Origin: Clostridiales bacterium
Lineage (GTDB): Bacteria > Bacillota > Clostridia > Lachnospirales > Anaerotignaceae
DNA length: 17,061 nucleotides
Reading direction: 5' to 3'
Assembly (NCBI GenBank): GCA_021202325.1
Contig: JAJQDF010000026.1
Location: 1-17,061, forward strand
In this document: one piece after another, positions 152 to 13,112 of the stretch
Layout: every line of letters starts with the position of its first letter
Numbering within the stretch: position 1 is the stretch's first letter
Made by a program: the position numbers and the translations under genes
Notes under the pieces: model-generated
Told to the model about the DNA's origin: nothing
Seen by the model: the letters and a program-made list of their open reading frames with translations, nothing else
Databases searched by the model: none

Positions 152-916
152 TCATCTTAACAACCGTACATGTCTATACCCATCCTCTGTCGTTACCGCC
201 GTTTCTACACCGTATACCTCTCTTATATTGCTCTCAGTCAGCGTATCATGCGGTTTTCCGCAGGCATACATCTCGGCGTCCTTCAATATAATTACATTAT
301 CGGCAAAAAGTGATGTCAGATTCAGGTCATGGATTGACATTATAACGCCGATATTTTTGCTGTGGGCAAGCTTTGTTATAAGCTCAAGTGTGAACATTTG
401 GTTCTTCAGGTCAAGACTGCTTGTGGGCTCGTCCATTATTATTATTTCCGGTTCCTGAGCCAATGCCCTCGCTATAAATACCCGCTGGCGTTCACCGCCG
501 CTCATCTCGCTGATATTTTTGAACGCAAAGTTCTCAAGATCCATTTTTTCGATTATGTCAAATACGATGTCCTTATCCTCGGTTCGTATTTTTCGTCCTG
601 CGAAAGCTATTCGCCCCATCATTATTGTGTCAACAACATTCATTTGGAACACATTGCTGTTATACTGCGGCACATAGCCTATCTTTTTTGCCCGCATAAT
701 CGACGTCATTTTTGCCACATCGTCTCCGTTTATATATACAGCTCCCTGCTTAGGCGTAAGCAAATGGTTAATGCATTTAAGCAGTGTAGTTTTTCCCGTA
801 CCGTTTGGTCCCAGCAAACAAAGCGTTTCGCCCTGATTGAGCTCAAAGCTGATATTTTTCAAAATTTCTCTGTCCGCTGTGTAGGAAAAGCTTATATTTT
901 CTACTTTCAGGCTCAT
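152..916 (-). CDS. btuD: Corrinoid (cobalamin) ABC transporter, ATP-binding protein
   Basis: This 254-residue ATPase of the FecE/BtuD/FhuC type powers import through the membrane subunit encoded just upstream. Visible motifs are Walker A GPNGTGKT (about 36-43), Q-loop YVPQ near 81-84, signature MSGGERQR (138-145), Walker B IIIMDEP (158-164) and switch His196 in MSIHDLN. It lacks the C-terminal TOBE domain of the molybdate ATPase elsewhere in the window, as expected for this branch. Its start overlaps the end of the permease gene by 4 bases, which suggests translational coupling. It is the last gene of a three-component operon under a cobalamin riboswitch. That riboswitch is the main reason for calling the substrate a corrinoid; the protein sequence alone would equally fit siderophore or haem uptake. 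Confidence 0.88.
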   Translation of the reverse strand: MSLKVENISFSYTADREILKNISFELNQGETLCLLGPNGTGKTTLLKCINHLLTPKQGAVYINGDDVAKMTSIMRAKKIGYVPQYNSNVFQMNVVDTIMMGRIAFAGRKIRTEDKDIVFDIIEKMDLENFAFKNISEMSGGERQRVFIARALAQEPEIIIMDEPTSSLDLKNQMFTLELITKLAHSKNIGVIMSIHDLNLTSLFADNVIILKDAEMYACGKPHDTLTESNIREVYGVETAVTTEDGYRHVRLLR

Positions 917-1992
917 TGCATTCTCCCCTTTTTCTGTCTCAGAATGAGGTTAATGAAAAGCGGAACGCCTAAAAACGAAACGACTATTCCGACCGGAATG
1001 CTTACCGGCGAAAGTATGGTCTTTCCTATGGCATCGGCAGCCATGAGAAGCATTGAGCCTGTCACAGCCGAAAACGGTATGAGATACTTATGGTCATTTC
1101 CTACAAGCATACGGGCTATATGGGGCGCAACAAGACCTACGAAACCTATAACTCCGGTAAAGCTAATGACCGCCGCAGTCATAAATACAGAAGCAACGCA
1201 CATCACTGTTCTTATCCTTTTAGGATTAAGTCCAAGGCTTTCCGCAAGCTCATCGTCGCCGGAAGCCATTGTGTTAAGCTTAAGAGAACAAGACATAATT
1301 ATAATTGTGCAGACAACTACAAAAACTCCCGAAAAAAACACATCGCTCCAAACAGTTCCGTTTAATGTGCCGAAGGTCCATTGTACAACAGCCGCCAGCT
1401 TATATTCCTCGGCAAAGAATTCAATTGCAGATGTCAGCGCACTAAAGAAGTAGTTCAGTGCAATTCCTGTCAGCACAACCGTTTCCGGCCCCATGCCTGC
1501 CTTTGACGAAATGCCGGATACTAGGGCTATACATAGTCCCGCCGCAGCAAAGGCACAGCATATGATTCCAAGCTCGCTTTTAAAAAATGCGCCTGTGCCG
1601 AAAACTATGCACATGCTGGCTCCAAAGGCCGCCGCATTGGATATACCCATGGTGAACGGGCTAACAAGCGGATTCCTCGTAACCGCCTGCATGGCCACAC
1701 CTGAAATCGACAGTCCCACTCCGGCCACAATAGCCATGGCTATTCTCGGCAATCGCATAAGTACAATTATTTTGTAATTTATATTTTCGGGAGAGCCGTC
1801 GTTAAGACGGCCCCCAATCCATGCTGATACTGCGGAAAGAACCTGCGAAAATGTTGTATCGGCTACACCTAGTGTCACAAAATACAGTCCGGCTATCAGC
1901 ATTATCACTATGCTCGCAAGAAGTATGATATTTTTTCGTCTGTTGCTCTGCTCATATTCCCTGCGGACATCTGAAATATTTTTGTTTTCCAT
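913..1992 (-). CDS. btuC: Corrinoid ABC transporter, FecCD-family permease
   Basis: This 359-residue membrane protein belongs to the FecCD/BtuC family. It has a basic, polar N-terminus (about 1-22), then a first helix around 23-45, and many further hydrophobic segments, fitting the roughly ten-helix BtuC fold. Family hallmarks include MRLPR near 79-83, the following glycine-rich segment, the AMQAVTRNPLVSP stretch (about 101-113) and the GFVGLVAPHIARM segment (about 283-295) before the last helices. The ATG sits behind a GAGG site formed by the end of the binding-protein gene, leaving only two bases between the genes. It would act as a homodimer with BtuD, receiving the corrinoid from BtuF. 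The substrate is inferred from the riboswitch at 3433-3652. Confidence 0.88.
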   Translation of the reverse strand: MENKNISDVRREYEQSNRRKNIILLASIVIMLIAGLYFVTLGVADTTFSQVLSAVSAWIGGRLNDGSPENINYKIIVLMRLPRIAMAIVAGVGLSISGVAMQAVTRNPLVSPFTMGISNAAAFGASMCIVFGTGAFFKSELGIICCAFAAAGLCIALVSGISSKAGMGPETVVLTGIALNYFFSALTSAIEFFAEEYKLAAVVQWTFGTLNGTVWSDVFFSGVFVVVCTIIIMSCSLKLNTMASGDDELAESLGLNPKRIRTVMCVASVFMTAAVISFTGVIGFVGLVAPHIARMLVGNDHKYLIPFSAVTGSMLLMAADAIGKTILSPVSIPVGIVVSFLGVPLFINLILRQKKGRMQ

Positions 1993-1994
1993 TA

Positions 1995-3098
1995 TTAATC
2001 CTCAAATGAATATGCCGGATATGTATGTCCCTCTATATAATCCAGCTTCTGATATTTTTCAAGCCAATCTTTGAATACTTCCTCCGGATGAAGGTCGGGA
2101 AGAAGATCAGGATAGAGGAATTTGGCTATATACATTGTTCCTACAAGCTTTGAAGCTCCGCCGTGTACATAGTGGGAAAGAAGAAGTACGTTATCGTTCT
2201 TTATGGCGTTTATCTCATCCCAGCCCGGTCTTGAGGCAAGCTCGTCCTTTATTGCCTGGTGTTCTTCCTCTGTCGGAGGATAATATGACGAATATACGTC
2301 GGGTGCCGAAACCTTTATTATATAGTCGGGATTAGCGGCAACTACAGCCTCTGATTCTACAGTTACGCTGGCTGAATCCTTAAAGAGGTTATCAGCTCCG
2401 GAGTATTCTACCATATAGTAGAAATAGTTCCCGGGAATAGTTGTGTTGCCTTCCGTTCTGTACTCAAAATATACTCTCTTTTTCTCTACGCCCTCAAGCT
2501 GTTCCTGTATGTAATCAAGCTTTTCCATGAAATAGTTGGAAAGCTCCTCGGCCTCTTCCTCTTTGCCGAAAACCTGACCAAGAAGCTCACAGCTTTTTTC
2601 AAACTCATTTGTATAATATGCATTGCATACAACCACCTTTATTCCAAAGGGTTCAAGCTGCTCTTCGGCTTCTTCCCATGTTCCATTATCAGTAAGGATA
2701 AGCACTTCGGGAGCAAGCTCTATTATCTTTTCATAGTTGAGATCCTTCTGGCTCTGGCCGATAACCATGTCCTCTGTAAATCTGTTCTGCCATGACTCCT
2801 CATCCTGATAAATGTTGTAATCAACACCTATCACGCAGTCAAGGGCATCGATGGCATTAATTATCTCTGTGTTATAAGCATTTGCAACTACCGCCTTTGT
2901 AACAGGATTGGGAATCTCAACTTCTCTGTCTATACTGTCAATTACTATTTGGGTTGCGCTTTCCTCTTCCGCTTCCGTTGTTACTTCTTCCGTTTCGGCA
3001 GTTTCCGTTGTGCTTGATGAGCATCCGGCAACTCCGCTTACCAATAATACTGCCGCCAAAACCATTGCAGCCTTTCTCTTAAAACTATAAGCCTTCAT
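1995..3098 (-). CDS. btuF: Corrinoid ABC transporter substrate-binding lipoprotein
   Basis: This 367-residue binding protein is of the helical-backbone type (periplasmic binding protein 2, BtuF/FecB-like). A lipoprotein signal peptide ends at lipobox Val-Ala-Gly-Cys26, and an acidic Thr/Glu-rich linker (about 27-48) follows, typical of a membrane-tethered binding protein in a Gram-positive. The ligand-binding domain starts near IVIDSIDREVEIP and contains the usual sequence around YEKIIELAPEVLILTDNG, where the family has its first lobe. The start has a strong GGAGG site seven bases upstream (AAAGGAGGATTACATAATG). It is the first intact gene of full family length after the cobalamin riboswitch, and a small interrupted reading frame lies between the two. 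The corrinoid substrate is an inference from that riboswitch; ferric complexes are the alternative. Confidence 0.85.
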   Translation of the reverse strand: MKAYSFKRKAAMVLAAVLLVSGVAGCSSSTTETAETEEVTTEAEEESATQIVIDSIDREVEIPNPVTKAVVANAYNTEIINAIDALDCVIGVDYNIYQDEESWQNRFTEDMVIGQSQKDLNYEKIIELAPEVLILTDNGTWEEAEEQLEPFGIKVVVCNAYYTNEFEKSCELLGQVFGKEEEAEELSNYFMEKLDYIQEQLEGVEKKRVYFEYRTEGNTTIPGNYFYYMVEYSGADNLFKDSASVTVESEAVVAANPDYIIKVSAPDVYSSYYPPTEEEHQAIKDELASRPGWDEINAIKNDNVLLLSHYVHGGASKLVGTMYIAKFLYPDLLPDLHPEEVFKDWLEKYQKLDYIEGHTYPAYSFED

Positions 3099-3388: not shown

Positions 3389-3432
3389 CGGGCATAAAAA
3401 TAATACCCATCTCCATTCCCCGAGATTTGCAT

Positions 3433-3652
3433 TTAGTTTCCCGTTAAGGCAGGTCTCCTGGCTTCTCATCGTCCTACTTCTGCCGCATACCTTCCCAACT
3501 GAAATAATCAGTCAGTGGCGGCCTATGGCCGCGGCATTTCGTCCGAGTTACAGTAGTGGGTGCTGTTACGGATTTTCACCGTATTCCCTATTCTCTTTCT
3601 GTTGCGAAAGCACCTTAACGCTGTTATATAAGCACCGGTTTCATTAAACTAA
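3433..3652 (-). ncRNA. Cobalamin riboswitch
   Basis: The minus strand carries the conserved blocks in order. First comes AAGGTGC near 3617-3611, then an AGGGAATACGGTGAAAATCC block, then the ACTGTAACTCGG block. After these come GCCACTG followed by GGGAAGG, and finally the B12 box AGCCAGGAGACCTGCC ending at 3448. A closing stem pairs TTAGTTT (3652-3646) with AAACTAA (3439-3433). The element lies about 12 bases after the predicted transcription start and upstream of the small frame and btuFCD. In this family corrinoid binding turns expression off. Its presence fixes the likely substrate of the transporter. Which corrinoid form it prefers cannot be told by eye. Confidence 0.96.
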
Positions 3653-8862: not shown

Positions 8863-8907
8863 CGGATTTAAGCGGAAATCATTCGTGTTTTCGGTTTGAT
8901 AATGGCA

Positions 8908-8952
8908 ATAAAAGCCAATGTTCCGTAAAACCATCGAAACATTGGCTTTTAT
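8908..8952 (-). repeat. Hairpin of half-copy R3
   Basis: A perfect 15-bp stem, 8908-8922 with 8938-8952, surrounds a loop that differs by one base from the loops of the copies at 62-76 and 9137-9151. Read on the minus strand the stem arm is ATAAAAGCCAATGTT. Four stem positions differ from the first copy and all four stay paired. Confidence 0.85.
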
Positions 8953-9121
8953 ATTGGATAATTTTTGTTTATTGAAATTTCTTAAGAAGTCACATTCATC
9001 CAAGCAATCTACCTTAAAGCAACTGCCTCGAAATTTTGTACAAATCTCATTTTTTCGACAAAAGCAGTCATCGTCGGAGGAATTCACTTCCGACAACGTC
9101 TATATCTAAAATCCAACCAAT

Positions 9122-9166
9122 GTAAAGGCAGATGTTTCGATGATTTTACGGAACATCTGCCTTTAC
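9122..9166 (+). repeat. Hairpin of half-copy R2
   Basis: A perfect 15-bp stem, 9122-9136 with 9152-9166, surrounds a 15-base loop identical to that at 62-76. Compared with the first copy, one G-C pair has become A-T through changes on both arms. A second perfect hairpin follows at 9177-9201 (11 bp, AAA loop), which contains the stop codon of the Cas4-like gene. Confidence 0.85.
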
Positions 9167-9185
9167 CTCCGCAATCAGGCGAAAA

Positions 9186-9746
9186 TCAAAGATTTTCGCC
9201 TAAGCACTCTGCCTCATCACACACCGTCCCATTACACACACAGTGCCTGCATTTTGCAAAGCTTGGTTCTGCTTCCTCCTCGTCGGTTTCCAGCATTCTC
9301 CTCATTCGTTCTGCGGTATCAATCACATTTTTGCGCAGCAAATGGGTATTTCTCACCACAAATTGCGTATTTTTATATGAAATTACAGCTTTTTTAGGTC
9401 TTTTATGGTATATATCCTCCACAATCAGCATGTATGCCCCCACTTGCAGCATGTCTCCTTCGTGGGGCCAATCCGTCTGGCCGCTCTTAATCTCCACCGG
9501 GAGCAAATCTCCGGTTATTCTATGGCGGTATATCATGTCGGGCTTGCCCTTGAGGTCGTATTTTTCGGAATATAGTATGCTTCCGTAGGTTATGTCCTCC
9601 CTCTTATGTTCTGCGGCCATGTCCGTATAAATGAGCTTCCACATGAGAAGCCTCGGCATTTTCTTTTTTTCAGTAATGCCGCCTCTGCCAAAGACCGTCA
9701 TAAGCAAAAGGAGCAGAATAACCGCTCCTATAAGTACATATATCAT
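9186..9746 (-). CDS. Membrane-anchored Cas4-like nuclease, catalytic and C-terminal Cys part
   Basis: This 186-residue protein has an N-terminal membrane helix (about 2-19), then a PD-(D/E)xK nuclease core of the Cas4/Dna2 group. GKPDMIYR gives Asp70, PVEIKSGQ gives Glu85 and Lys87, and QVGAY (101-105) is the usual late helix motif. The tail has Cys166, Cys169, Cys171, Cys176 and Cys181, as in the C-terminal part of a Cas4 iron-sulfur site. It lacks the N-terminal Cys and motif-I His; both occur in the protein encoded just upstream, whose stop overlaps this start (ATGA). The start has GGGGAGGA eight bases upstream, so it is translated in its own right. The last codons lie in the repeat hairpin at 9177-9201. 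No CRISPR genes are near. Nuclease function is inferred from motifs. Confidence 0.8.
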   Translation of the reverse strand: MIYVLIGAVILLLLLMTVFGRGGITEKKKMPRLLMWKLIYTDMAAEHKREDITYGSILYSEKYDLKGKPDMIYRHRITGDLLPVEIKSGQTDWPHEGDMLQVGAYMLIVEDIYHKRPKKAVISYKNTQFVVRNTHLLRKNVIDTAERMRRMLETDEEEAEPSFAKCRHCVCNGTVCDEAECLGENL

Positions 9747-10039
9747 ATCACTATTCCTCCCCTTAAAAGGAAGTACAGCGCCGCCGCAATGATTATGACC
9801 AACGCCGCAGCGGCTCTTCTGCGCCTTCTTCCGGTTTTAACAAAGGTATCATGGTGATAGCCTGTGCCTCGCTCGAAAAATTCCTTTCGTTTATCTTCCA
9901 GCCCAAGCCTCTCGTTTCTCTCCATTTCCAGCCGTCTTAGTTCGTTTCTGCCGTAAAGTCTCTCGTAATACCATTGATAGGGGCAGTAGGCAAATTTACT
10001 TAATTCAGTGGCCGCAATTGTATGTCTGTCTTTGTCCAT
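9743..10039 (-). CDS. Membrane protein with the N-terminal Cas4 motifs, partner of the nuclease downstream
   Basis: This 98-residue protein starts with the Cas4-type N-terminal signature SKFAYCPYQWYYERLYG (14-30), with Cys19 as the expected first iron-sulfur ligand. It continues with a charged helix and RGTGYHHDTF (57-66), whose His fits motif I. After five Arg (71-75) comes one membrane helix (about 76-93) and the frame stops. The Arg cluster predicts an inside N-terminus, and the next protein would begin outside and return, so both soluble parts face the cytoplasm. Together the two equal one Cas4-like enzyme interrupted at a membrane hairpin. Its start overlaps the yhaM stop by one base. 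A very old frame break in a single gene is the alternative, but the 4-base ATGA overlap and good ribosome site favour two chains. Confidence 0.75.
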   Translation of the reverse strand: MDKDRHTIAATELSKFAYCPYQWYYERLYGRNELRRLEMERNERLGLEDKRKEFFERGTGYHHDTFVKTGRRRRRAAAALVIIIAAALYFLLRGGIVI

Positions 10040-10980
10040 CAGTACTCAGTCTTTCTAATGTTTCTCTGGAGCATTTTCTGATAACCTGCCCATGGCCCGG
10101 GAGTTGAATCAGCACCTATAAAATCTTCAAACACCTTACTCTTGGCATCCATATCATCGGCACAATGGAGAATGTGCGCCTCTATAGTCTTCGGAAGCAC
10201 CGGAGAGCCGTATTCAAACTCGCCGTGATGGGAAAGTATGCAATGCTTAATTATGGTTTTGAGCCTATCCGGAAAGCCTTCTATGGAAGAAGCTGTCTTT
10301 TCTACAAGCTCTGCCCCTATATAAATATGTCCGAGAAGCTGTCCGTCGTCGGTATAGTCATTGAGCGGAAAATCAGATAATTCCCAAAGCTTGCCCACAT
10401 CATGGAGCATTGCCGAAGCCACAAGCACATCCCTGTCCACAAATTTATATTTATCGGCCATGAAATCGCATATCTGCGTAACCGTGAGCGTGTGCTCCAG
10501 AAGTCCTCCCAAATAGCCGTGATGTACACTTTTGGCGGCAGAATGAATCGGAAAAGCCTTGGCAACATAGCCGTTTTTGAGGAATATTCTCTCCAACAGC
10601 TCCTTTATATGGGGATTTTTTATGGTATTGATATATCCAGTCAGCTCTCCCCACATTGCCTTTATGTCCTTATCCGTAGAAGGGATATAGTCAGTGGGAT
10701 CATATTCTCCCTCCTGGCTCTTTCTTATTCTCCTTACATTGAGCTGTATATCGTTGTTGAAAATTTGAGCAGTGGCATCAATCTTTATCATATCGTTCTC
10801 GGCAAAGGATTGAATGTCGTTATTCAGGTTCCAAACCTTGGCATCCACCGTTCCGGTCTTATCCGAAAGCTTAAGTGACAGATAATTTTTATCATTTTTG
10901 GATTTAAAGGTCTGTCTGCTTTTGCAAAGATAATGTCCTACTATCTGCTCGCCTTCCCTTATCTCGTTAATATATTTCAT
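10039..10980 (-). CDS. yhaM: YhaM-like 3'-5' exoribonuclease (OB fold plus HD domain)
   Basis: This 313-residue protein has the YhaM architecture. An N-terminal OB-fold nucleic-acid binding domain (about 12-90, with LSLKLSDKTGTVDAKVWN) is followed by an HD hydrolase domain. The HD part shows HHGYLGGLLEHTLTV (about 152-166), AMLHDVGKLWE (about 190-200), HILSHHGEFEYGSP-like sequence around 247-260, and HCADDMDAK (about 272-280). These supply metal ligands. Family members degrade RNA, and some DNA, from the 3' end. Length matches (about 314). The ATG at 10980 is preferred to that at 10983 because AGGAGG then lies at a normal distance. It follows the sensor kinase gene closely and overlaps the next gene by one base, which links it to the split Cas4-like nuclease. 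Confidence 0.9.
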   Translation of the reverse strand: MKYINEIREGEQIVGHYLCKSRQTFKSKNDKNYLSLKLSDKTGTVDAKVWNLNNDIQSFAENDMIKIDATAQIFNNDIQLNVRRIRKSQEGEYDPTDYIPSTDKDIKAMWGELTGYINTIKNPHIKELLERIFLKNGYVAKAFPIHSAAKSVHHGYLGGLLEHTLTVTQICDFMADKYKFVDRDVLVASAMLHDVGKLWELSDFPLNDYTDDGQLLGHIYIGAELVEKTASSIEGFPDRLKTIIKHCILSHHGEFEYGSPVLPKTIEAHILHCADDMDAKSKVFEDFIGADSTPGPWAGYQKMLQRNIRKTEY

Positions 10981-10989
10981 CATTTCCTC

Positions 10990-12417
10990 CTATTCCGCCA
11001 GCGTAAGGCTGAATTCGAATTTTGCTCCGCCCATATCCGACTCCTTGCAGACTATTATTTCCTTGTGGGCGTTTAATATTTCCTTTACAGCACACAGCCC
11101 CAGACCACTTCCGGTCTTGTCCATTCCTCTTGAGCTGTCGGCTTTATAGAATGCATCAAAAACATGACGTCTTTCATTTTCGGGTATTCCAACCCCGCTG
11201 TCGCTGACAGCCACATACACCTTTTCTTCATTTCTTGGCACAGTCGTTTCTATTTCTACAACTCCGTTTTCCGGAGTGAATTTAACTGCATTATCAACCA
11301 AATTATGAATAACCCTATGAATTTCCTGTTTATCGGCGTTTACAATTGTCTCGCTTTCGGCAAATATAAGACGGCAGGAAAGGTTTTTCTCTCCGAATCT
11401 ATGTTCAAAAATATCCATAACCTCTCTTATAAGCTCGTTTAAGTCAAAGTCCTCTCTGTTAAGCTCCAAAACATTCTCTTGGGTTTTTCCCATATCTACG
11501 ATGTTTGTCGCCAGCACGGACAGTCTTTCGGTTTCCTCCATAATAATGCCGAGATAATAATTGTACTGATCTTCGGGAATTATGCCGTCCTGCATAGCCT
11601 GTATAAAGCCCTGTATACTCGTAAGCGGCGAACGCAGGTCGTGGGCAATGCTGGCAATAAACAGCCTTCTGTCCTGCTCCTTTTTATCCAAGCTCTCCGC
11701 CATATAGTTGAAGCTTTCCGCCAACTGGCCTATTTCGTCGCTTGATGTTACTTCAAGCCTTCTGTCAAAGTTTCCGTCGGAAATAATTCTGGCTGTCTTA
11801 TTCATTTCAAGAAGCGGCTTTGTAAGCTTTCTCGAGAAAAAGTATATGAGCATCACTGCAAGAATTATGCCTAAAAGCGCCGACAGCAGCATTATTTCCA
11901 AAGTTGCATAAATTGTTGACTGTATTTCAGGCACCGGGGTGCAAAGGAAAATACCTCCGTATGTAACTCCGTTTATCTTTATCGGATAACCGACAGTTAT
12001 CATGCTTTCGGAAAACATGCCGCCTACCTGACCTCTGACAGTGACGATGTTTCCGTTCAAGACACCGTTTATTGTATCGTTTGTGATTGACTGGCCTATC
12101 CATTCGCTGTCAATGGACGATGACACGGTCGACACAACACCTGAACGGTTTACCAAAAATATGCTTGTTCCTGTATAATCCTCGATAATCTCAATCTTTG
12201 TCTGAAGCTCTGTATCATCTACAACGCCACTGGATATTGCCCTGCCGTACTGCTGGGCGATGGAGCGTGCCTGCTCCTTCAGCTGAGTCTGCTTCTGCTC
12301 ATAATAATATTCCGAACAGAAGTAATATACAGATGCGGTCATAATACAGAATACCGACAAAAATATAAGTATATAAACTCCTGTCTGCTTAAAAAACAGT
12401 GAGCTTTTTTTAGCCAT
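10990..12417 (-). CDS. Membrane sensor histidine kinase
   Basis: This 475-residue kinase has a first membrane helix (about 12-33), an extracellular sensor of about 135 residues and a second helix (about 172-195). A HAMP linker (about 196-248) and a HisKA domain with His259 in FIASIAHDLRSPLTSIQGF follow, then a HATPase domain. ATP-site motifs are HNLVDNAVKF (371-380, N box), DSGVGI (406-411) and GSGLGL (436-441). The sensor has YTGTSIFLVNRSGVV and a GYPIKINGVTYGGIFL segment, reminiscent of Cache/PAS-like folds, but the ligand cannot be told. It starts five bases after the response regulator gene without a clear ribosome-binding site, which suggests coupled translation. It should phosphorylate the neighbouring regulator. 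Targets are not shown by the sequence. Confidence 0.93.
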   Translation of the reverse strand: MAKKSSLFFKQTGVYILIFLSVFCIMTASVYYFCSEYYYEQKQTQLKEQARSIAQQYGRAISSGVVDDTELQTKIEIIEDYTGTSIFLVNRSGVVSTVSSSIDSEWIGQSITNDTINGVLNGNIVTVRGQVGGMFSESMITVGYPIKINGVTYGGIFLCTPVPEIQSTIYATLEIMLLSALLGIILAVMLIYFFSRKLTKPLLEMNKTARIISDGNFDRRLEVTSSDEIGQLAESFNYMAESLDKKEQDRRLFIASIAHDLRSPLTSIQGFIQAMQDGIIPEDQYNYYLGIIMEETERLSVLATNIVDMGKTQENVLELNREDFDLNELIREVMDIFEHRFGEKNLSCRLIFAESETIVNADKQEIHRVIHNLVDNAVKFTPENGVVEIETTVPRNEEKVYVAVSDSGVGIPENERRHVFDAFYKADSSRGMDKTGSGLGLCAVKEILNAHKEIIVCKESDMGGAKFEFSLTLAE

Positions 12418-12422
12418 TCATA

Positions 12423-13112
12423 TCATCTCGTTTCAAATTTATAACCGACTCCGTGAACCGTCTTAATGCTCCAGCTTTCGTCCCCTTTATTCAGCTTTTC
12501 ACGTATTCTCTTTATGTGAACATCAACGGTTCTTGAATCACCGACATATTCATAGCCCCATATTTTATCAAGCAGCTGTTCCCTTGTGAAAACCTGGTTT
12601 TTGTTTTCCGCAAGGAAGTAAAGAAGCTCCAGCTCCTTCGGTGGGAACGAAAGGCTCTCCCCATGATAAACAACAGTATAGTCGCTCATGCTAATTTTAA
12701 GATTTTCAAATGTTACTGTTTTGCTGTCCTGCTTTTCCTCTTTCTTTTCGGATCTTCTGAGCACCGCCTTAACCCTGGCCACCATTTCTTTTGGCTCGAA
12801 GGGCTTAACGATATAATCGTCGGCTCCCATTTCCAGTCCAAGCACCTTATCAAATGTATCGCTCCTTGCGGTCAGCATTATTATCGGCACATCGCTCTTT
12901 TTCCTTATTTCGATACATATCTGATAGCCATCCATTCCGGGAAGCATTACATCAAGTATGACAAGGGCAGGCGCAAATGCATAGAACTCGTCCAGCGCCT
13001 TTCTTCCGTCATATACCTCCTTCGTCTCATATCCGTCCTTTGTAAGGTAAAGAGATATAAGCTCGGCTATATGTTTTTCATCATCAACAACAAGTATTCT
13101 GGTCTTATCCAA
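12423..13112 (-). CDS. OmpR/PhoB-family response regulator
   Basis: This 229-residue regulator has a receiver domain (about 4-118) with Asp10-Asp11, phospho-acceptor Asp54 in VILDVMLPG, Thr81 in MLTARS and Lys103 in IVKPFEP. A winged-helix DNA-binding domain follows (about 130-229) with FPPKELELLYFLAENKNQVF, the ELL-type start of the effector domain, and RTVDVHIKRIREKL, the recognition helix region. The start is a TTG inside the end of the acyltransferase gene (8-base overlap) with GGAGGAGGAG just upstream. It forms a pair with the kinase that follows. The close packing implies that it may control its own operon, but no operator repeat could be assigned. Confidence 0.93.
   Translation of the reverse strand: MDKTRILVVDDEKHIAELISLYLTKDGYETKEVYDGRKALDEFYAFAPALVILDVMLPGMDGYQICIEIRKKSDVPIIMLTARSDTFDKVLGLEMGADDYIVKPFEPKEMVARVKAVLRRSEKKEEKQDSKTVTFENLKISMSDYTVVYHGESLSFPPKELELLYFLAENKNQVFTREQLLDKIWGYEYVGDSRTVDVHIKRIREKLNKGDESWSIKTVHGVGYKFETR

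Follow-up and report, generated by a model that had tools for sequence, protein, structure and literature searches.

A Cas4-family nuclease predicted to be divided between two membrane chains encoded by adjacent genes

Here we describe a pair of small overlapping genes in a stretch of 17,061 nucleotides (the window; contig JAJQDF010000026.1, assembly GCA_021202325.1) from a Clostridiales bacterium of the Anaerotignaceae. Chain A (9743..10039, minus strand; 98 amino acids, with homologues of equal length) corresponds to the N-terminal half of a Cas4-type PD-(D/E)XK nuclease and ends in a C-terminal membrane helix. Chain B (9186..9746, minus strand; 186 amino acids, a match to TIGR00372) consists of the catalytic core and a C-terminal Cys cluster, preceded by an N-terminal membrane helix. 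We think it probable that A and B each make up half of one Cas4-family nuclease and assemble at the inner face of the membrane into a single active site with a predicted iron-sulfur (Fe-S) cluster. That the two chains belong to one enzyme is very probable, and their pairing, the cluster, the activity and the topology are predictions. The pair itself is real and widespread within its lineages. An earlier reading made from the letters of the DNA (the sequence-only reading) had seen two frames overlapping by ATGA here, and both are present with that overlap.

The residues that define the family are distributed over the two chains. On the minus strand, chain A carries Cys19 (9983..9985), the predicted first Fe-S ligand, and motif I, G58-x-x-x-H62 (9854..9868). 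Chain B carries the catalytic Asp70 within a GKPD sequence (9537..9548), the catalytic pair E85-x-K87 (9486..9494), the Q101-x-x-x-Y105 motif (9432..9446) and the C-terminal cluster C166-x2-C169-x-C171-x4-C176 (9219..9251). These are invariant among 26 aligned genomes, in which the full invariant set of A comprises E12, Y18, C19, W23, Y24, Y29, G58 and H62, and that of B 23 columns, including D70, E85, K87, Q101, Y105, C166, C169, C171 and C176. The sequence-only reading had singled out these motifs as well as an Arg run (residues 71-75) ahead of the hydrophobic C-terminus of A and a hydrophobic helix at the N-terminus of B, all of which were found. The four conserved Cys typical of Cas4, one N-terminal and three C-terminal, are obtained only from both chains together (C19 plus C166, C169 and C176), C171 being additional to this set; likewise, the core of D, E-x-K and QxxxY lies in B, and the GxxxH of motif I is carried by A.

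The same picture emerges from the 62 bacterial pairs used for motif counts (archaeal pairs were excluded). All 62 have an N-terminal C-x2-4-W in chain A and the D / E-x-K / Q-x3-Y set, 61 have G-x3-H in chain A (the exception, L086, is a broken A frame), and C-x2-C-x6-C is found in chain B of 60. L069 and L079 show a differing Cys spacing, shorter by one residue. In L086, a record of Thermoanaerobacterium saccharolyticum NTOU1, frame changes interrupt chain A, and B is open.

Family models agree with this division. Chain B scores 71.7 bits against the NCBIfam Cas4 model TIGR00372 (cut-off 65), and the match is restricted to model positions 53-178 of 180, from which it follows that the first third of Cas4 is absent from this chain. 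Chain A provides the Cas4 parts that B lacks, Cys19 and G58-x-x-x-H62, and by itself scores no more than 14.2 bits (E 0.0064) for the Cas4d model of PADLOC. With the Pfam Cas4 model, chain B stays below the cut-off (21.4 versus 22.7 bits). As far as sequence comparison goes, the agreement in motifs and family exceeds chance. In the sole one of four comparisons with an estimable dS, the ratio of nonsynonymous to synonymous substitution rates (dN/dS) for chain B was 0.15 (against L003).

Is the division genuine? The sequence-only reading had noted that relatives with always one unbroken frame would point to a local frameshift. Across 60 genomes, made up of 59 relatives and the window's own, chain B is present in 26, and chain A in the identical 26, with neither chain alone in any; the chance of identical lists is 1.4e-17 for two random draws, though the result for A records presence and does not amount to an independent discovery, because the chain A profile was built from the same genomes. 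Thus, the split is not a local frameshift. Chain A lies upstream of B in 25 of 25 other loci from the relatives' genomes. In a locus scan with one genome per species (66 loci, overlapping the 60-genome set), tblastn placed A directly upstream of B in its own frame in 62, so that two genes take the place of the single polypeptide usual for Cas4, and fused versions were found in 0 of the 66. Relatives thus keep the split almost without exception, and the refutation foreseen in the sequence-only reading did not come about. A local frameshift or assembly error was rejected because the split recurs across many genomes, among them L047 (NZ_CP133078) and L073 (NC_015958), whose records are titled complete. 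Furthermore, 98 of 101 chain A relatives measure 90-110 amino acids, in a search confined to 0.55-1.75 times the query length.

The four remaining loci of the scan differ among themselves. L092 and L094 have an A-like frame upstream when read by eye. For L065, chain A lies on another contig of the same metagenome-assembled genome (G454; A is L133), behind a yhaM-like frame, and no yhaM lies upstream of B. L095 encodes a soluble Cas4 in one chain, and its upstream frame resembles Cas2 by eye. In the 62 loci, the frame of B relative to A is +1 in 33, +2 in 22 and 0 in 7, and the commonest overlaps, counted from the start of B to the end of A's stop, are of 4, 8 and 14 bases (12, 11 and 9 of 62, with start positions set by a start-codon rule). 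Since the frame step varies among loci, no single recoding event could join A and B, and programmed frameshifting or stop read-through was rejected on the variable frames and start distances. Outside its lineages the pair is rare: when 391 genomes were sampled across the class, 2 matched at E 1e-10, and the window's genome was one of these.

Both membrane helices were called from hydropathy alone. In chain A, the best 19-residue stretch covers residues 80-98 (9746..9802, minus strand; mean 2.51), with six Lys/Arg in the 15 preceding residues, none after, and the Arg run a few residues ahead. In chain B it covers residues 1-19 (9690..9746, minus strand; mean 2.89), with five Lys/Arg in the 15 residues that follow. 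The best hydrophobic stretch falls in the C-terminal part of A in 26 of 26 sequences and at the N-terminus of B in 25 of 26 (L027 is without it), and Lys/Arg are in excess before the helix of A in 25 of 26 (L010 being the exception) and after that of B in all 25 with a helix. According to the positive-inside rule, such a charge bias indicates the side of the membrane on which a flank lies, and hence both soluble halves are predicted to face the cytoplasm. The C-terminus of A and the N-terminus of B would then lie outside, and the two helices would form a hairpin with a cut outer loop. The predicted Fe-S cluster would be held by Cys19 of A and three Cys of B, and the predicted active site would combine His62 of A with Asp70, Glu85 and Lys87 of B.

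Natural fusions exist as well. With joined and read-through rows in the profile, a search yielded 327 matches, and 3 of the 120 listed are at least 270 amino acids long. The fusions P0158 and P0233 cover 97% of the query and carry the A half followed by the B half, joined by a hydrophobic hairpin; in P0195, chain B is preceded by an N-terminus that looks unrelated. P0158 and P0233 group with L069 and L079 in a quick tree of 78 rows (SH-aLRT 95), nested inside the split rows, and their fusion therefore looks secondary on this sequence comparison; the tree has long outgroup branches, and the branch separating split from soluble rows is weak (22). A predicted complex had been proposed as a test of whether Cys19 and His62 approach the second chain, and the structure models give a mixed picture: that of a relative's tandem pair aligns over a complete Cas4, whereas that of a natural fusion aligns over the B half only. 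Among the families listed, the nearest folds of the tandem-pair model are Cas4, EXO5, AdnA, MGME1 and Dna2.

Directly upstream of the pair, and overlapping the start of chain A by 1 base, lies a gene for a YhaM-like OB-fold/HD-domain nuclease (10039..10983, minus strand), which scores 186.8 bits against PRK13480 YhaM, below the cut-off of 460, and 56.4 bits against PF01966 HD. yhaM stands directly upstream of the pair in 51 of the 66 scanned loci and is the usual partner in Lachnospirales-type loci; it also adjoins the pair in L045 (L110 in the set of yhaM loci), which was set aside by a gap rule. Among the 66, no yhaM was found upstream in seven Thermoanaerobacter-type loci, four archaeal loci, L092, L065 and L095. 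Conversely, of 30 yhaM loci, 29 from relatives and one from the window, 21 contain both A and B, 9 contain neither and none contains one alone. In 8 of the 9 pair-less loci, the next frame after yhaM is RlmD-like, read by eye from its start (not in L105), and downstream of the pair an RlmD-type gene occupies one of the first two frames in 39 of 67 loci, with one example scoring 528.6 bits for RlmD. Genes for a histidine kinase and a response regulator, recognised by eye, lie just upstream of the yhaM-like gene (10990-13112, minus strand), packed within a few bases, and a kinase-type gene related to the window's occurs near the pair in 17 of 67 loci.

No link to CRISPR was found, in keeping with the lack of nearby CRISPR genes already remarked on in the sequence-only reading. 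cas1 was not found in the window's genome (83% complete), and its frequency is alike in genomes with the pair (11 of 26) and without it (14 of 34; Fisher p = 1). A CRISPR-associated Cas4 was rejected on the lack of adjacency to cas1/cas2 and on the similar occurrence of cas1 with and without the pair.

Relatives of the pair also occur in archaea. In the class of the Thermoplasmatota genome G456 (L091), the B profile matches 184 of 250 genomes at E 1e-8, though single-chain Cas4 falls within its reach too; among 150 archaeal frames listed, 26 are under 260 amino acids and 115 are of 300-449. We read 20 archaeal loci and 20 more. Split pairs are found in 16 of them (L139, L141-L155), and L140, which comes from the genome of L094, was missed by the motif filter. 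A ScpA-like frame, recognised by motif, lies upstream in 17 of 17 (L139-L155), and SMC-type genes precede it in L089, L090, L091 and L094 (PF02463 was scored for L094). In Pfam, the archaeal neighbour has no ScpA match; its best PDB match is ScpA, with E 0.0017 for L147 and 0.048 for L091. A further 22 frames (L156-L158, L159-L177) are long single chains, and L178 ends at the contig edge. Like the pair, these single-chain membrane Cas4 proteins of Thermoplasmatota have the order N half, membrane segments, C half, but they are one chain, and no ScpA-like gene was seen in their short flanks. They show four hydrophobic segments in 16 cases, three in 4 (L163, L169, L170, L177) and eight in 2 (L162, L164). 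The frames of L162 and L164 exceed 500 amino acids and have the eight segments ahead of the catalytic half, with no N half seen within the stretch examined.

In the split pair of L094/L140, the motif-I His of A (by eye) and the catalytic Glu and Lys of B are lost, and the Cys are kept. By these residues, L094 is one case of joint decay of A and B, and possibly a structural-only version of the pair.

Several observations weigh against a membrane-assembled DNA nuclease made of A and B. Chain A alone reaches no family cut-off (PF12705 in Pfam, 17.4 bits, cut-off 22; no NCBIfam match), and a chain A profile search of the PDB matched no Cas4 chain. The pair model was made for a relative's tandem, other than the window's own A/B, and the model of the natural fusion P0158, which fits Cas4 only over its B half, draws the hairpin as one long helix (predicted template-modelling score, pTM, 0.61). 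In the clade of L027, L085 and L087, chain B has no membrane helix and A retains one, so the hairpin is not universal. Furthermore, among the 66 scanned loci, those of Thermoanaerobacter type, of the planctomycete and of archaea showed no upstream yhaM. According to a 2024 paper, YhaM of B. subtilis degrades both single-stranded RNA (ssRNA) and single-stranded DNA (ssDNA) in vitro, and favours ssRNA (PMC11347170). Given this preference and the loci in which yhaM was not found, the DNA role rests on family knowledge.

The predicted membrane placement and the patchy occurrence among relatives (26 of 60) would also suit a defence function, in which the pair cuts foreign DNA entering through the membrane by phage injection, conjugation or transformation, and a Cas4-like nuclease of S. 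elongatus limits transfer or maintenance of RSF1010 replicons, according to PMC10653904. We regard this as unlikely, because the neighbours are of housekeeping type (yhaM, rlmD, smc-scpA) and the pair is present or absent at one site between yhaM and rlmD. In PADLOC, moreover, chain B matches Cas4-type models at the top, and the DruK nuclease and Cas1b models more weakly. A scan of viral contigs by short patterns gave 10 stretches, none of them a relative, which speaks against defence and by which a viral or phage origin of the gene was rejected.

It is distinctly improbable that chain B is a nuclease by itself and A merely a membrane-bound partner or regulator contributing no residue to active site or cluster. 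A is undocked from B in one of two models, and the two genes lie on separate contigs in one metagenome-assembled genome; against this, the invariant Cys19, G58 and H62 of A are the very residues absent from B, natural fusions retain A in Cas4 order, and in the archaeal pair L094, active-site residues are missing from A and B alike. Least probable of all is a membrane RNA nuclease that partners YhaM in RNA decay. The neighbours might suggest such a role, as most of the scanned bacterial loci have yhaM upstream and 39 of 67 have rlmD, an rRNA methyltransferase gene, downstream. Against it, the folds nearest to the tandem model belong to known DNA nucleases, and the archaeal neighbour resembles ScpA, a chromosome protein.

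We therefore return to A and B as halves of one Cas4-family enzyme, and infer that the pair is a membrane-assembled solo-Cas4 for DNA processing. It would be stationed at the membrane and trim or cut ssDNA in genome upkeep, outside CRISPR, with YhaM, a 3'-5' nuclease, as a putative partner in Lachnospirales relatives and SMC-ScpA in Thermoplasmatota.

How does this compare with known Cas4 proteins? The 2017 survey of Hudaiberdiev et al. (PMC5704561) describes a four-Cys Fe-S module in all Cas4 members and a monophyletic solo-Cas4 branch in most Thermoanaerobacterales, an order in which chain B is found too; the words transmembrane and split are absent from its main text. Four Thermoanaerobacter-type genomes have chain B plus single-chain Cas4 matches of 166-183 amino acids. 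Like the pair, solo-Cas4 (PF01930/TIGR00372) has the PD-(D/E)XK motifs, GxxxH and the Fe-S cysteines and occurs outside cas loci, but the pair divides these residues over two genes, with two membrane helices at the break. The CRISPR Cas4 proteins (7mi4, 8d3l, 4ic1) are single soluble chains, known beside cas1/cas2, in contrast to the two predicted membrane chains of A/B. In their structures, the Fe-S exonuclease domains of EXO5, AdnA and AddB lie within single chains, which are not known to have such a split membrane arrangement. Among the matches listed from the open-licence literature, no description of a split or membrane Cas4 was found, and neither the available part of PMC7055376 nor a term search of PMC11237513 gave anything on Cas4.

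Elsewhere in the window, a cobalamin riboswitch (RF00174, 105.8 bits; 3431-3632, minus strand) lies upstream of an ABC importer set, recognised by eye (152-3098). Downstream of chain B, the region 8886-9188 contains two hairpins with 18-nucleotide arms each (8908-8952 and 9122-9166), which lie in a 90-nucleotide inverted repeat (70%) and have a Cys-rich minus-strand frame between them.

Taken over all lineages, the odds somewhat favour an overlooked class of membrane-embedded Cas4 in Bacillota, Thermoplasmatota and one planctomycete, which would build one DNA-cutting site and one Fe-S cluster either from two separately made single-span chains or from a single chain with an even number of membrane helices bundled between its halves, and would form a membrane DNA-processing station linked with YhaM in bacteria and with SMC-ScpA in archaea. 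If so, the nuclease family familiar from CRISPR includes a membrane branch in which two chains jointly complete the active site and the metal cluster. In that case, certain proteins annotated as Cas4 would be without their N-terminal half, encoded by a neighbouring gene of about 98 codons that is mostly labelled hypothetical where sources name it. Solo-Cas4 would gain a cellular place and, in YhaM and SMC-ScpA, testable partners, and the pair would offer a natural split nuclease together with natural fused controls.
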